33,480 bases of DNA from contig CADBEA010000023.1 of assembly GCA_902793635.1 (NCBI GenBank), positions 1-33,480 on the forward strand. The letters run 5' to 3'. Under the pieces are notes generated by a model that was given only the letters and a program-made list of their open reading frames with translations, did not search any database and was not told the DNA's origin. Made by a program: the position numbers and the translations under genes. The stretch comes from an uncultured Erysipelotrichaceae bacterium (lineage in GTDB: Bacteria > Bacillota_I > Bacilli_A > Erysipelotrichales > Erysipelotrichaceae). Below, in pieces: positions 6,981-22,761 of the stretch (positions are counted from its first letter, which is position 1; each line of letters begins with the position of its first letter).

Positions 6981-7973
6981 TTATGATTCTTCGCTCTGAT
7001 CGGTGTCTTTCTTGTTTCTGCGCAGGAAGCCCGGCAGTCTGAATTTCGGCATCCGGAGGAATCCGAACTTTTTGTTCAGGAAGAACAGAACGACAAGGAT
7101 AACGATATACGGCATGACATACAGTGCCCAGATGACGAAGTCTTCCACTGCCCAGCTGAAGTTCTTCCAGCCGTCAACGACAGAATTCCAGGCTCTTTCC
7201 AGGAACGATTCATTGACATGGACATATTCCTTCACTTCTTCCAGAGATACGGTTACCGTGGAGTATCTGACATCGGTATCCATGGACTGCTGGTATGTCT
7301 TCAGCTGATTCAGTTCGGTCTGCACGTTGGTCAGACGGGTCTCGACGACGATCATGTCTTCGATCGTCTGCGCCTGATCCATCATGGCCAGCAGTCTCTC
7401 CTGCTGTTTTTCAAGCGCTTCGATCTGCACGGTCGTGTCGCTGTACTGACGGGAGATATTCATGACATTGGTGGAATGGGAAATGACTTTGCCGATGCCG
7501 TCTGCCGAAGTCATGAATGTCTCAAAGTTTTCCGTCGGGATCCGTACCGTCATATTCATGTAGCGGCGGCCGGAGGAATCGTTGTTGTACCAGTAATGGT
7601 TACTGTCGGATTCACTTTCGTATTCAATGATGCCGCCGAGTTCCTTTACTTTATTGCGGATATTCTGCAGGCTGCTTTCATATTCAAGTGACTGAATCGT
7701 CAGGCTGCCGGTATATACCAGTTTCTCCTGGCTGAGCACCGGATCGACTTCCGGCGCCGGTCTTTTTTCTTCATCATAGGAATTCGCTTCGGCCGGAGCA
7801 TAGCCGGCATCCGCGGCTTCTTCCTTGGCATTGTAGGAACTGTAATAATTGCCAGTGCCGCCGCTGGCTGTCTGATCCGTTTCATAATATGCCGAACCCG
7901 TCGAATGTGAGCTGCTGCAGCCGCAGAGCAGTGCCGCTGCCAGAGCCGCTGTCATAAACCATCTTTGTTTCAT
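6981..7973 (-). CDS. DUF4349 lipoprotein with C-terminal membrane segment
   Basis: 330 residues. A lipoprotein signal peptide ends at the lipobox LCGC (Cys19). A low-complexity Ser/Tyr/Ala/Glu linker (about 20-80) follows, then the DUF4349 domain with LVYTGSLTIQSL, a coiled-coil stretch around IEALEKQQERLLAMMDQAQ, and one C-terminal transmembrane segment (VMPYIVILVVLFFLN) with a basic tail. DUF4349 proteins are envelope proteins of unknown role. It follows the putative anti-sigma gene by 15 bp, so it is probably a structural or sensory target of this ECF system. Confidence 0.85.
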   Translation of the reverse strand: MKQRWFMTAALAAALLCGCSSSHSTGSAYYETDQTASGGTGNYYSSYNAKEEAADAGYAPAEANSYDEEKRPAPEVDPVLSQEKLVYTGSLTIQSLEYESSLQNIRNKVKELGGIIEYESESDSNHYWYNNDSSGRRYMNMTVRIPTENFETFMTSADGIGKVISHSTNVMNISRQYSDTTVQIEALEKQQERLLAMMDQAQTIEDMIVVETRLTNVQTELNQLKTYQQSMDTDVRYSTVTVSLEEVKEYVHVNESFLERAWNSVVDGWKNFSWAVEDFVIWALYVMPYIVILVVLFFLNKKFGFLRMPKFRLPGFLRRNKKDTDQSEES

Positions 7974-7988: not shown

Positions 7989-8498
7989 TTACTGCTTTTC
8001 AACCTGATATGGATACGGAATCATTTCCAGACATGCCTGCAGTTCCGCTTCACTGAGGGTGCCTTCCAGCCGGCCTTCCTCATCGACCATCACTTCATAG
8101 CCGGCTTCCTTCAGCATGTCACAGACATTCTGCAGACTTTCCGCGCTCAATGTTTCGCCGTTTCTGTCCTGCAGCGTGATCACGTAAACTTGACGCTCTG
8201 CTTCCCTTGCTTCTTCCATCGGTGCTTCCCCGCTGTCTGCCTCGATACTGCTGTAGGAGTCATACGCAGCGCCTTCTTTCATTTCCTGGGAAGCCGCTTC
8301 GTTGACTGCGCCGCCGGTATCATAAGTGGTCGGTTTCGGTGTCACCGCCACATACAGCAGGAAGGCGGCAGCTGCGCTGAACAGTATGGCACCAGCCTTA
8401 CGGTATCTGTGTACCCATCCATATTCCTTTTCACTCTTCTCAAGATAAACTGGATCGATATCATTCAGAGATTCGAGAACTGCTTCACTCAGTTTCAT
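7989..8498 (-). CDS. Putative anti-sigma factor, single-pass membrane protein
   Basis: 169 residues. A cytosolic N-terminal part (1-33) is followed by one transmembrane segment (about 35-52, AGAILFSAAAAFLLYVAV) and an acidic extracytoplasmic region. Its start overlaps the sigma factor's stop (ATGA), which points to translational coupling. No zinc-binding HxxxCxxC motif is seen, so the anti-sigma role rests on topology and gene order, not on a recognised domain. The C-terminal segment resembles the small repeat seen after DUF4349-type neighbours, but I do not recognise a family. Confidence 0.6.
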   Translation of the reverse strand: MKLSEAVLESLNDIDPVYLEKSEKEYGWVHRYRKAGAILFSAAAAFLLYVAVTPKPTTYDTGGAVNEAASQEMKEGAAYDSYSSIEADSGEAPMEEAREAERQVYVITLQDRNGETLSAESLQNVCDMLKEAGYEVMVDEEGRLEGTLSEAELQACLEMIPYPYQVEKQ

Positions 8499-9052
8499 AA
8501 ATATCCCTCCTTCTGAAGATACTCTTTCAGTTGTGTTCTGACACGGTTGAGTATGACGTTGACGTTGCTTTCCGAAAGACCATATCGCTTGGCGATCTTC
8601 GCTGCGCTTTCCATATAGAAGTAGCGTCTGACAAAGACATTTCTGTCTCTGTCCTTCACCTTTTTCAGAAAGCGGTTGATCGTCTCCGCCAGATCCTTCG
8701 CGGCAAACGAAGCAGCCGGATCATCACCGGATGAAAGAACCGCTTCCAGTTCGCCGAGGGCTGCCTCATATTCACCGCCGCCGCGCTTTTCACGTGTCTT
8801 CGTACGCAGACAGTTCAGAGCGAAGCCGCGGGTGATCTTAGCCAGAAAATACTGCAGCTTACTGGGTCTTTGCGGCGGAATCAGCTGCCATGTCTGATTC
8901 CACGTGTCATTCACACATTCCTGAGAATCCTCGTTGTCGAAGAGGATGTTCCAGGCGACAGTAAAACAATAGTGACCGTACTTATGATCGGTCTCCCGGA
9001 TCGCGTCTTCGTTTCTGGCAAAATAGAGATCCAGTATTTCCCTGTCTTCCAT
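8495..9052 (-). CDS. ECF-type RNA polymerase sigma factor
   Basis: 185 residues with sigma-70 region 2 in the first 90 residues (DNEDSQECVNDTWNQTWQ, then the region 2.4-like LQYFLAKITRGFALNCLR) and region 4 at the end (AKIAKRYGLSESNVNVILNRVRTQLKEYL). No region 1 or 3 is present, as in extracytoplasmic-function sigma factors. It heads the operon sigma / membrane anti-sigma / DUF4349 lipoprotein / hydrolase, implying control of an envelope response. The gene ends with TGA overlapping the next start. Confidence 0.88.
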   Translation of the reverse strand: MEDREILDLYFARNEDAIRETDHKYGHYCFTVAWNILFDNEDSQECVNDTWNQTWQLIPPQRPSKLQYFLAKITRGFALNCLRTKTREKRGGGEYEAALGELEAVLSSGDDPAASFAAKDLAETINRFLKKVKDRDRNVFVRRYFYMESAAKIAKRYGLSESNVNVILNRVRTQLKEYLQKEGYL

Positions 9053-10946: not shown

Positions 10947-10979
10947 AAGACAGCTGGAATGGAATCAGCTGTCTTTTTT
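10945..10979. terminator. Bidirectional terminator
   Basis: AAAAGACAGCTG (10945-10956) pairs with CAGCTGTCTTTT (10966-10977). It lies between the convergent dehydrogenase and CvpA-like genes and reaches the latter's stop codon. Confidence 0.8.
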
Positions 10980-11671
10980 CATTTATCCTGCGGAACAGTC
11001 TGTCCGAAACCGTTTTCCTGCAGCCACTGATCGAACATTTCCTGATCCTTTTCATCCAGTATCAGACCTTTTTCCCAGAGATTCTGCACCATCGGGCTGT
11101 CCGTCTTCAGACTGGCTGTCAGCGGTTTGCCGATATACTGCACCGGATACTGCAGAACACTCTGACCGACAAGATCAGCGCCGTTTTTAACGATTCCCGT
11201 TGACTGGGAAGTAATCAGAAACACCGAAAGAGCCAGTGACCAGAAAACAGCGGATGCACAGCCAATCAGAAAGCCAAGCAGCTGACTGATCATACCGATA
11301 CTGTCACGCTTTTTCTTTGATACGGAAAACATCGGATGGGTAATCAGATGAAGCACCAGTTCAGCGGCCGCGAATACCGCCAGAAAAGTCAGGACCCGGC
11401 GGGCATACAGAAGTGTCTGCGGATCGATTTCAGCAGCTGCGCCATATGCTGAATGGAGAGCCGCCTCCGCCCAGGAAGCCGGAATGAACGGGAAGGTCTG
11501 GGAGACAAACCAGCCGCCGAAGCAGGCTGCCCCAAGAATCACGACAGATACAAGAAATCCCAGCAGTGCAGCAATGAATCCCCTTCTGAATCCTGTATAA
11601 ATATTGAATAAAGCAAGCAGGGCTGCCGCAACATTGACAGCCATCAGCACATTCTGATCGGCAATGAACAT
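10979..11671 (-). CDS. CvpA-family-like membrane protein
   Basis: About 230 residues with four hydrophobic segments: near the N-terminus (VAAALLALFNIYTGFRRGFIAALLGFLVSVVILGAA), at about 90-110 and at about 130-155. The FRRGFIAALLG motif after the first helix is the CvpA hallmark. CvpA proteins are inner-membrane proteins linked to envelope stress and, in enterobacteria, colicin V production; the molecular role is unclear. The C-terminus is a soluble acidic tail with QEMFDQWLQENGF. ATG 11671 is preferred because GGAGG lies 8 bp upstream; the GTG at 11680 overlaps that site. It lies just downstream of the hairpin-array RNA and could be its read-through target. Confidence 0.75.
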   Translation of the reverse strand: MFIADQNVLMAVNVAAALLALFNIYTGFRRGFIAALLGFLVSVVILGAACFGGWFVSQTFPFIPASWAEAALHSAYGAAAEIDPQTLLYARRVLTFLAVFAAAELVLHLITHPMFSVSKKKRDSIGMISQLLGFLIGCASAVFWSLALSVFLITSQSTGIVKNGADLVGQSVLQYPVQYIGKPLTASLKTDSPMVQNLWEKGLILDEKDQEMFDQWLQENGFGQTVPQDK

Positions 11672-11713
11672 AAATGACACCTCCGTCTTATCATACGATA
11701 ACTACATACTGAT

Positions 11714-11739
11714 AAAAAAAATACGGAACCACAGTTCCG
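11714..11739 (-). terminator. Intrinsic terminator ending the hairpin-array RNA
   Basis: On the minus strand CGGAAC-TGTG-GTTCCG (11724-11739) is followed by TA and eight T's (11714-11721). It stands 43 bp before the CvpA-like start codon, so partial read-through would put that gene under control of the array. Confidence 0.8.
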
Positions 11740-11988
11740 GAACAGTTGTATTTCGCTCGGTGATTCCTCACCGATTTGTCTTTATATATCACTTGATTGC
11801 CGTGCAGCAATCAATTTGTTGTTGTATATCACTCGGTGATTTCTCACCGATTTGTGTTTGTATATCACTCGATGGTCGCCCATCGATTTGTCTTTGTATG
11901 TCACTTGATCGCCGTGCAGCAATCAATTTGCGTTTGTATTTCAGTCGGATGTTTTCGTTTTTCATCCGGCGTTGTTTTCCTTACGCGT
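11714..11988 (-). ncRNA. Candidate novel noncoding RNA: tandem hairpin array with GNRA loops
   Basis: Read on the minus strand, six hairpins are strung on A-rich linkers of 17-18 nt that are nearly constant (GTGATATACAAACACAAA type). Stems are at 11945-11968, 11905-11926, 11869-11886, 11833-11850, 11793-11814 and 11757-11774, at 36 or 40 nt pitch. Three are 7-bp stems closed by GNRA tetraloops (GCGA, GAAA, GGAA). Two are 8-bp stems with a TGCACG loop, one of them with a G-U pair in place of an A-U pair. The stem of 11869-11886 differs from its neighbours by two compensated base pairs. A strong promoter lies at the 5' end and an intrinsic terminator (11714-11739) at the 3' end. I know no RNA family with this design. 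It could also be a long structured leader of the CvpA-like gene. Confidence 0.72.
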
Positions 11989-11993
11989 GTATG

Positions 11994-12060
11994 AATATAG
12001 CACCGTAAAATGGGACTTGCAAGACCTTTTTTTACTTTTTTTCAATCTTTTTTTTCGTTT
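11994..12060 (-). promoter_or_regulatory. Strong promoter with phased A-tract UP element for the hairpin-array RNA
   Basis: On the minus strand -35 TTGCAA (12017-12022) and -10 TATATT (11994-11999) are exactly 17 bp apart. Immediately upstream lie A-tracts at 12027-12033, 12036-12042 and 12048-12055, spaced roughly one helical turn apart, as in UP elements of stable-RNA promoters. Start of transcription near 11986-11988. Confidence 0.7.
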
Positions 12061-12128
12061 TTGAAAATGAAGCGCTTACATCGCGAAATAGCCCTTTGTT
12101 AAGCCGTTTTTTCGGCCAAAATGCCCTT

Positions 12129-17821: not shown

Positions 17822-17894
17822 GAGTGCTTAGCTCAGCTGGGAGAGCACTTCCTTGACGTGGAAGGGGTCATGGGTTCGAGTCCCTTAGCGCTCA
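17822..17894 (+). tRNA. tRNA-Val(GAC), integration target
   Basis: A full cloverleaf: acceptor GAGTGCT with AGCGCTC, D arm GCTC...GAGC, anticodon stem CTTCC/GGAAG around TTGACGT (anticodon GAC, valine), and a T loop TTCGAGT. The T stem has a T-T mismatch (17871 with 17885). The mature 3' CCA is not encoded here: after the discriminator A94 the sequence reads C-TTG. The copy of the core at the far end of the element is followed by CCA, so the host's original gene did encode it. A perfect 13-bp terminator follows. Confidence 0.93.
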
Positions 17895-21817: not shown

Positions 21818-21888
21818 TTCTAGCGGATTATCCGCTAAATATCAATAGCGGATTATCCGCTAAATATCAATAGCGGATAACCCGCTAA
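21818..21888 (-). promoter_or_regulatory. Promoter of the small-protein operon with three tandem palindromic operators
   Basis: Three 17-bp palindromes, TAGCGGATTATCCGCTA at 21822-21838 and 21847-21863 and the variant TAGCGGATAACCCGCTA at 21872-21888, are spaced exactly 25 bp apart. On the minus strand -35 TTGATA (21841-21846) and -10 TAGAAT (21818-21823) are 17 bp apart, and the first operator fills the spacer. A repressor bound there would block the polymerase. The divergent Xre-type gene 25 bp away is the likely ligand. Confidence 0.78.
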
Positions 21889-21912: not shown

Positions 21913-22128
21913 ATGATTTATCGTAGAATCAGGAATTTAAGAGAAGATAATGATTTAACACAAAAACAGATGGGGGAAATTCTTTCGTGTAGCCAACGAG
22001 TATACAGTAATTATGAGCGTGGCGATTTAGATATTCCTACCGAAATCCTGATTAAATTAGCTGATTACTATGATGTATCGGTGGATTATATTCTCGAAAG
22101 AACAAACAACAAAAAAACACGGCGGTGA
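21913..22128 (+). CDS. Xre/Cro-CI-type transcriptional repressor
   Basis: 71 residues, essentially one HTH_3 domain: IRNLREDNDLTQKQMGEILSCSQRVYSNYERGDLDIPTEILIKLADYYDVSVDYIL. AGGGGA lies 5-6 bp before ATG. It is divergent from the small-protein operon across three 17-bp palindromes, the standard layout of an autoregulated switch. Its 3' end overlaps the tail of the convergent serine recombinase gene. Stop TGA. Confidence 0.88.
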   Translation: MIYRRIRNLREDNDLTQKQMGEILSCSQRVYSNYERGDLDIPTEILIKLADYYDVSVDYILERTNNKKTRR

Positions 22129-22761
22129 TACACACCTTTCTCCTTTATAATTAATAATCAATATGATTAGCTCACCTCTCAAAACTTTCAAATATTTATA
22201 AACTGATTTTCTACTAATCCCGCAGATCCTCGCGAGTTCTGCTTTGTTCATATTGCCAGCGATGTAGGCTGGATAATGTTTATAGAAGACGGCAGGAATG
22301 TCGTCTTTTGTTGTGTGCGGTCTTCCGATTGCTGCACCTTTTGCTTTGGCATTCGCCATTCCGCTGCGGACTCTCGCCCTGATAAGCTGCAGTTCTAATT
22401 CCGCAAACACAGCCGAGATCTGACAAAACGCCGCTGACATAGGATCAAGAACACCTGTCGTGCAATCCACTGTAATAGATCCAACAACCTTGAGACACAG
22501 TTTCTTTTCTTTGACTGTATCGATAATGTCACACAACTGTTTCGTGCTCCTTGCAAGTCTGCTGATCTCTAACGTCATTATGACGTCCCCTTCTTGTGCT
22601 TGTGCAAGGAGTGCAGCTAATTCATGCTTGATAACTGCATCTCCATGCTCGTATTCCACAACAATTTCTTCGCAGCCTGCGGCTTTGAGTTCTCGCACCT
22701 GACGATTTATGTCTTGTTTGTTCTCGTTCGTTGAGCATCTACAGTAGCCAAACACTGTCAT
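22057..22761 (-). CDS. Serine recombinase (resolvase/invertase family) with a foreign C-terminal tail
   Basis: 234 residues. Resolvase catalytic domain: FGYCRCSTNENKQDINRQ (nucleophile Ser near residue 10), GDVIMTLEISRLARS and the E-helix IRARVRSGMANAKAKGAAIGRPHTT. A C-terminal HTH (NKAELARICGISRKSVYKYLKVLR) follows. In the fossil copy at 23837-23934 the same stretch ends with a stop right after KVLR. Here it runs on for about 28 unrelated residues into the convergent repressor gene, so the natural 3' end has been lost at a rearrangement point. The enzyme could still be active. Preceded on the same strand by a 93-residue conserved protein. Confidence 0.85.
   Translation of the reverse strand: MTVFGYCRCSTNENKQDINRQVRELKAAGCEEIVVEYEHGDAVIKHELAALLAQAQEGDVIMTLEISRLARSTKQLCDIIDTVKEKKLCLKVVGSITVDCTTGVLDPMSAAFCQISAVFAELELQLIRARVRSGMANAKAKGAAIGRPHTTKDDIPAVFYKHYPAYIAGNMNKAELARICGISRKSVYKYLKVLRGELIILIINYKGERCVSPPCFFVVCSFENIIHRYIIVIS
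22178..22271. repeat. 94-bp direct repeat, copy 1 (inside the serine recombinase gene)
   Basis: Identical over 94 bp to 23841-23934 in the same orientation; the flanks are unrelated on both sides. The repeat encodes the C-terminal HTH of the recombinase. Homologous or site-specific recombination between the copies would remove a 1,663-bp circle carrying the recombinase, the 93-residue protein and the second repressor. Confidence 0.92.

Follow-up and report, generated by a model that had tools for sequence, protein, structure and literature searches.

What kind of gene is the run of short hairpins at 11717–11987 of the DNA stretch analysed here (contig CADBEA010000023.1, from an uncultured Erysipelotrichaceae bacterium), the whole of which, 33,480 nucleotides (nt), is called the window? 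An earlier note, made from the letters of this DNA, had proposed a tandem hairpin-array RNA encoded on the minus strand; we examined the region on both strands. Comparative sequence analysis identifies the array as a real, new and lineage-restricted RNA gene family of unusually clean modular architecture, in which interchangeable hairpins on constant linkers lie between a closed 5′ domain, preceded by a predicted strong promoter of its own, and a terminator of its own. We tentatively read it as a stand-alone gene, of a new family, for a non-coding RNA that would serve as a multivalent platform or decoy under sugar control, a reading to which we give just short of even chances.

All parts of the gene lie on the minus strand, where it spans 11717–11987 with an extended −10 promoter, the 5′ domain, five repeat hairpins, 18-nt linkers and an intrinsic terminator. 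The −35 box (TTGCAA, 12017–12022; at the same place in relatives and there mostly TTGACA) and the extended −10 box (TG-C-TATATT, 11994–11999) are followed by the expected transcription start at about 11986–11987. The 5′ domain opens with GCGU (11983–11986), the 5′ strand of a helix, P0, whose 3′ strand ACGC is carried by the first linker (11927–11945), and contains P1, a longer-looped first hairpin (CGGATG...CATCCG, 11946–11968). Repeat hairpins and linkers then alternate: H1 (11905–11926, long-stem type), GUGACAUACAAAGACAAA (11887–11904), H2 (11869–11886, GCGA loop), GUGAUAUACAAACACAAA (11851–11868), H3 (11833–11850, GAAA loop), GUGAUAUACAACAACAAA (11815–11832), H4 (11793–11814, long-stem type), GUGAUAUAUAAAGACAAA (11775–11792) and H5 (11757–11774, GGAA loop). 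Linkers 2 to 5 are each exactly 18 nt; the last, of 17 nt (11740–11756), runs into the terminator CGGAAC-TGTG-GTTCCG-TATTTTTTTT (11714–11739, hairpin 11724–11739), which relatives have at the same place. The tandem array of the earlier note is therefore present, as five repeat hairpins, P1 and the terminator hairpin. The three 4-nt loops read as it had stated (two hairpins of 8–9 base pairs have another loop), TCGGTGA/TCACCGA and TCGATGG/CCATCGA do differ by two compensated changes, and the G–U pair that it placed in a long stem is found in H1. Its layout of an array with promoter and terminator stands; the structured 5′ domain and an upstream box resembling a catabolite-responsive element (cre) had gone unmentioned.

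The pairing of the stems is conserved. In an alignment guided by the model's structure, and hence biased towards it, stems were paired in 99.2% of cells, all seven pairs showed double (compensatory) changes and the covariation score was 0.767, against 0.289 for shuffles and at most 0.162 for slid controls. In the first alignment, built without structure, 98.2% of cells were paired and six of the seven pairs had double changes. Loss of the stems in relatives, which the earlier note had named as an argument against an RNA gene, is thus not what we observe, 99% of cells being paired.

Which strand is selected? The minus strand folds far better than its shuffles (z = −6.3; 0 of 100 as good), but energy alone cannot fix the strand because the plus strand folds well too (z = −4.7). 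Among 98 distinct hairpins there are 15 G–U pairs and a single A–C mismatch, which shows that selection acts on the minus-strand RNA and, with the promoter and terminator, assigns the gene to this strand. We also considered whether the hairpins form a block of terminators for the convergent 2-hydroxyacid dehydrogenase gene that many arrays face, since on the other strand a U-rich stretch follows each hairpin and a scan rates four plus-strand hairpins as terminator-like. The G–U/A–C asymmetry favours the minus strand, however, and it is there that the promoter and 5′ domain are conserved; moreover, arrays persist without an adjacent dehydrogenase gene, and terminators give no reason for conservation of the linker core. 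We give this explanation a very small chance. Covarying stems, a strand bias, a constant linker, and a promoter and terminator retained in relatives mark an independent structured RNA gene, in agreement with the complete minus-strand RNA gene proposed earlier.

The linkers are the constant part of the repeat unit. Across 111 units from 24 array pieces, 77 of 87 are exactly 18 nt long, bearing out the constancy first noted in the window, and their consensus is GYGAWAUAYARNNNCAAA, with A and U in equal shares at position 5. The unit finder demanded a near match to linker positions 1–10, whose invariance is therefore partly built in, but not the 18-nt length or the CAAA end. Linkers are predicted to be mostly unpaired (mean 0.66) and stems to be paired. 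Hairpins, in contrast, range from 14 to 24 nt and their loops from 3 to 12 nt, with variable sequence; GNRA loops, which the earlier note took as a defining trait, are not kept (23 of 62 four-nt loops). The stem bases adjoining the linkers are conserved (YYG/CRR). These comparisons demonstrate, as far as sequences can, that selection maintains stem pairing together with linker sequence and length, and not stem sequence or loops. Constant linker length combined with variable hairpin length points to independent binding modules. Unit number differs between arrays and duplications are visible; in one array (L093, genome G014) a block of three hairpins, about 113 nt long, is repeated through recent duplication of units.

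Three other readings of this repeat grammar were weighed. The fixed linker length, the conserved YYG/CRR bases and the closing helix P0 would also suit a structural scaffold made of RNA only, in which A-rich linkers might dock into helices nearby or a filament might form, with no dedicated protein. Hairpins of 14 to 24 nt and arrays of 1 to about 11 units are incompatible with a rigid, periodic scaffold, however, and we regard this reading as quite unlikely. The window array holds a 58-codon minus-strand frame with 12-residue repeats like SDIQTQIGEKSP, as a small protein gene might, but unit lengths modulo 3 are evenly spread (31/29/27) and frames differ between units and species; frame analysis thus refutes the coding reading, which retains next to no probability. 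An array of clustered regularly interspaced short palindromic repeats (CRISPR) would need identical repeats and unique spacers, whereas here both parts vary and the stems covary.

How is the array closed at its 5′ end? Just past the expected start, the leader is complementary to the variable centre of the first linker, pairing as GCGU/ACGC in the window and as GCUG/CAGC, GUUG/CAAC, CACUG/CAGUG, ACGG/CCGU or GCCG/CGGC in others. Leaders paired with their own linkers score 6.09 on average versus 4.21 when swapped, and in a permutation test of 23 arrays 0 of 20,000 permutations reached the observed sum. The helix P0 encloses a GAAAACAA stretch and P1. These covarying leader/first-linker pairs establish the predicted closure of the 5′ domain.

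We then asked how widely the array occurs. When 60 relatives were searched at the DNA level, arrays resembling that of the window came up in a handful of genomes belonging to its genus. The covariance-model search of related genomes that the earlier note had proposed was run with a model of the repeat unit (R1, from alignment A2 of 24 units out of five genomes). R1 was positive in 23 of 70 genomes of this gut and rumen genus at one locus each, with 1 to 10 model hits per bearer and 1 to about 11 hairpins per array; in a class-wide draw of 296 genomes it hit the window's own genome only. A second model (R2, built from 52 units) recovered the identical 23 and, in 273 family genomes (203 beyond the 70), no other positive genus. 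The split between bearers and non-bearers is sharp: the best E-value in a bearer is at worst about 1e-5. When 84,980 species genomes were scanned for the pattern, genuine arrays turned up in records of Erysipelotrichaceae and Solobacterium and nowhere else, several of the records being from rumen or gut; five single matches, in Nostoc, Saprospiraceae, a Clostridiales bin, Moraniibacteriota and Paenibacillus, were due to chance and formed no array. Bearers lie near the window's genome by Lgt similarity (Mann–Whitney p = 4e-8), so descent within a single part of the genus seems to account for most of its distribution; several non-bearers are interspersed in the similarity order and one bearer is distant. 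The dehydrogenase surroundings in non-bearing genomes contained no hidden array, and the dehydrogenase copies there stand mostly in other contexts. A phage or plasmid origin was considered and no match was found.

The promoters suggest when the RNA would be made. Their boxes have the same position in nearly all arrays, and promoter and terminator are conserved across species despite differing neighbours. In the window a cre-like (CcpA/LacI-family) box on the minus strand, ATGTAAGCGCTTCATT (12066–12081), has two mismatches to WTGNAARCGNWWWCAW and its centre 51 nt upstream of −35. At 17 of 21 promoters such a box is centred 20–21, 29–30, 40–41 or 51 nt upstream of −35; simple shuffles leave 12 of the 19 best sites significant at p = 0.05, and two sites (G002 and G084), weak by consensus, were accepted on core and place. 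Successive distances differ by one helical turn of DNA (R = 0.94 at period 10.5, 15 loci), with the limit that the species are related and position counts are not independent; four class means give p = 0.007. In Bacillus subtilis, a cre upstream of −35 marks activation by CcpA and acts in a helix-face-dependent manner (PMC3463425). The array promoters show this upstream, helix-face-dependent placement, which makes catabolite activation the preferred reading. We infer, with good support, that CcpA or a close LacI-family relative would raise transcription in sugar-replete cells; possibly a related LacI-family regulator acts instead of CcpA. Another non-coding RNA gene whose promoter carries a cre box is that of the 6S RNA of lactic acid bacteria (PMC8414754). 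In that promoter the box overlaps −35 and its presumed effect is repression, whereas the array cre lies upstream in helical phase, and the two RNA structures are unrelated.

Is the array a form of a known RNA? No family of Rfam 15 reaches its gathering cut-off, so the match to a known family that the earlier note had allowed for did not appear. The best, RF02920 (Fusobacteriales-1; 23.0 bits versus a cut-off of 52.1), has three hairpins on linkers and a similar UGAUACAA stretch and aligns full-length to the window array, but a relationship was rejected (E = 0.55; not recovered from three other arrays; genus-wide matches at chance level). No equivalent description was found in a literature search that covered few subscription papers. 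Among known systems, CsrB and RsmX-Y-Z are stand-alone RNAs with many repeated protein-binding modules in variable copy number, often carbon-linked. The array shares the stand-alone form and the variable number of modules, but Csr RNAs display GGA in their loops, whereas here it is the linker and not the loops that is conserved. CrcZ and CrcY, of the Hfq–Crc system, are carbon-controlled decoy RNAs with A-rich single-stranded repeats; the array differs in its core (GYGAWAUAYA, not an AAN repeat), its phylum and its promoter control. The sponge suggested by the earlier note remains plausible in general, with the usual partners missing: Hfq (PF17209) and CsrA (PF02599) were each found in 0 of the 70 genus genomes with controls positive, and a Csr-type or Hfq-type sponge was rejected on this basis.

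What could such an RNA do? Its anatomy, a constant open site, a free spacer, variable number and a strong regulated promoter, is the reason for proposing a platform or decoy. In sugar-replete cells, CcpA or a close LacI-family relative would raise array transcription through the upstream cre boxes. With moderate confidence, we propose that the hairpins would act as spacers keeping each linker open, that each linker with the bases of both flanking stems would form one binding site, and that the RNA would thereby gather or titrate a single partner, for which the likeliest candidate is an RNA-binding protein distinct from CsrA and Hfq. Several points weigh against this proposal. Two thirds of the genus lacks the array, four of the 21 promoters lack a cre box, the supporting cre positions come from related species, and neither CsrA nor Hfq is there to be bound. 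The full linker pattern, taken as a composite site, occurs outside arrays at chance level only, on either strand of the 70 genomes; a decoy copying a common mRNA site is hence not supported, and the partner would need either to recognise a shorter core or to serve the array RNA specifically.

The same linkers could instead pair with several messenger RNAs (mRNAs), the hairpins separating the pairing sites of a trans-acting antisense RNA. They are A/U-rich and predicted mostly unpaired, and a G in a fixed partner could pair with either base at the variable pyrimidine positions, 2 and 9. Position 5, in contrast, holds A as often as U and cannot be matched by any fixed partner base, the genus has no Hfq, and the linker pattern (GYGAWAUAYAA) again fails to exceed chance outside arrays, a search of the full pattern that did not extend genome-wide to shorter complementary sites. 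We consider antisense action unlikely. A bolder form of the platform proposal, that the array represents a new class of catabolite-activated RNA whose 18-nt open linkers, set between interchangeable hairpins, would let a dedicated RNA-binding factor land at many sites, and that bacteria without CsrA and Hfq would thus have a new system of global post-transcriptional control, is possible, though well short of even chances. A strong RNA that appears to respond to sugar and bears many copies of one putative binding site offers a handle, since a pull-down may bring out the main RNA-binding factor of a genus that lacks Hfq and CsrA. Its unit grammar of constant linker and free stem also provides an unusually clean natural example of modular RNA.

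Does the array belong to a neighbouring gene? In the window the next gene downstream, cvpA-like or Colicin_V-like (10979–11680, match 3.8e-06, just below Pfam's cut-off), lies on the same strand with its start about 34 nt past the terminator, and the divergent gene encodes an M28-type peptidase. The nearest relative also has the array directly upstream of the cvpA-like gene, which in both genomes sits between array and dehydrogenase, an arrangement that would suit a cis-acting leader or attenuator. In most bearers, however, the array abuts the convergent 2-hydroxyacid dehydrogenase gene on the opposite strand, with a DUF308 membrane gene and lgt beyond it, and others have unrelated neighbours, yet the array retains its promoter and terminator. 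Relatives in general do not have the same gene downstream on the same strand, which refutes a leader as the general function; we hold even a restricted version to be highly improbable. Because its own promoter and terminator are kept throughout, the array is a gene of its own.

Neighbouring genes also bear on a precursor cut into single hairpins, as for ToxI of type III toxin–antitoxin systems, whose tandem repeats of about 36 nt have a promoter and terminator. The array likewise has tandem repeats of about 36 nt, its own promoter, and a terminator past the repeats. Yet no toxin gene adjoins it (neighbours are Colicin_V-like, dehydrogenase, PAP2, DUF308, RpiR-type, Fe-hydrogenase and other housekeeping genes), stems differ widely inside one array, unlike the near-identical ToxI repeats, and there is no pseudoknot evidence; we rate it a shade below the leader in probability. 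At three loci with unrelated neighbourhoods (L078, L087 and L092) an RpiR-type sugar regulator gene adjoins the array, which could be chance.

The window has further features outside the array gene. Next to an ATC-hydrolase-like gene, positions 25–97 match a group II intron domain (40.2 bits, Rfam cut-off 40), possibly a remnant left where the contig ends. A transfer RNA (tRNA) gene (17822–17894) is directly followed by a phage-integrase-family gene (PF00589, 17983–19635), with a resolvase at 22057–22761; this region is probably an integrated mobile element. At 21821–21888 lies a tandem repeat of 25 nt × 2.7 (unit TAGCGGATTATCCGCTAAATATCAA) with an inverted repeat inside, by eye unrelated to the array. 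An extracytoplasmic function (ECF)-type sigma factor gene (8495–9052) lies near a DUF4349 gene (6981–7973) on the same strand.
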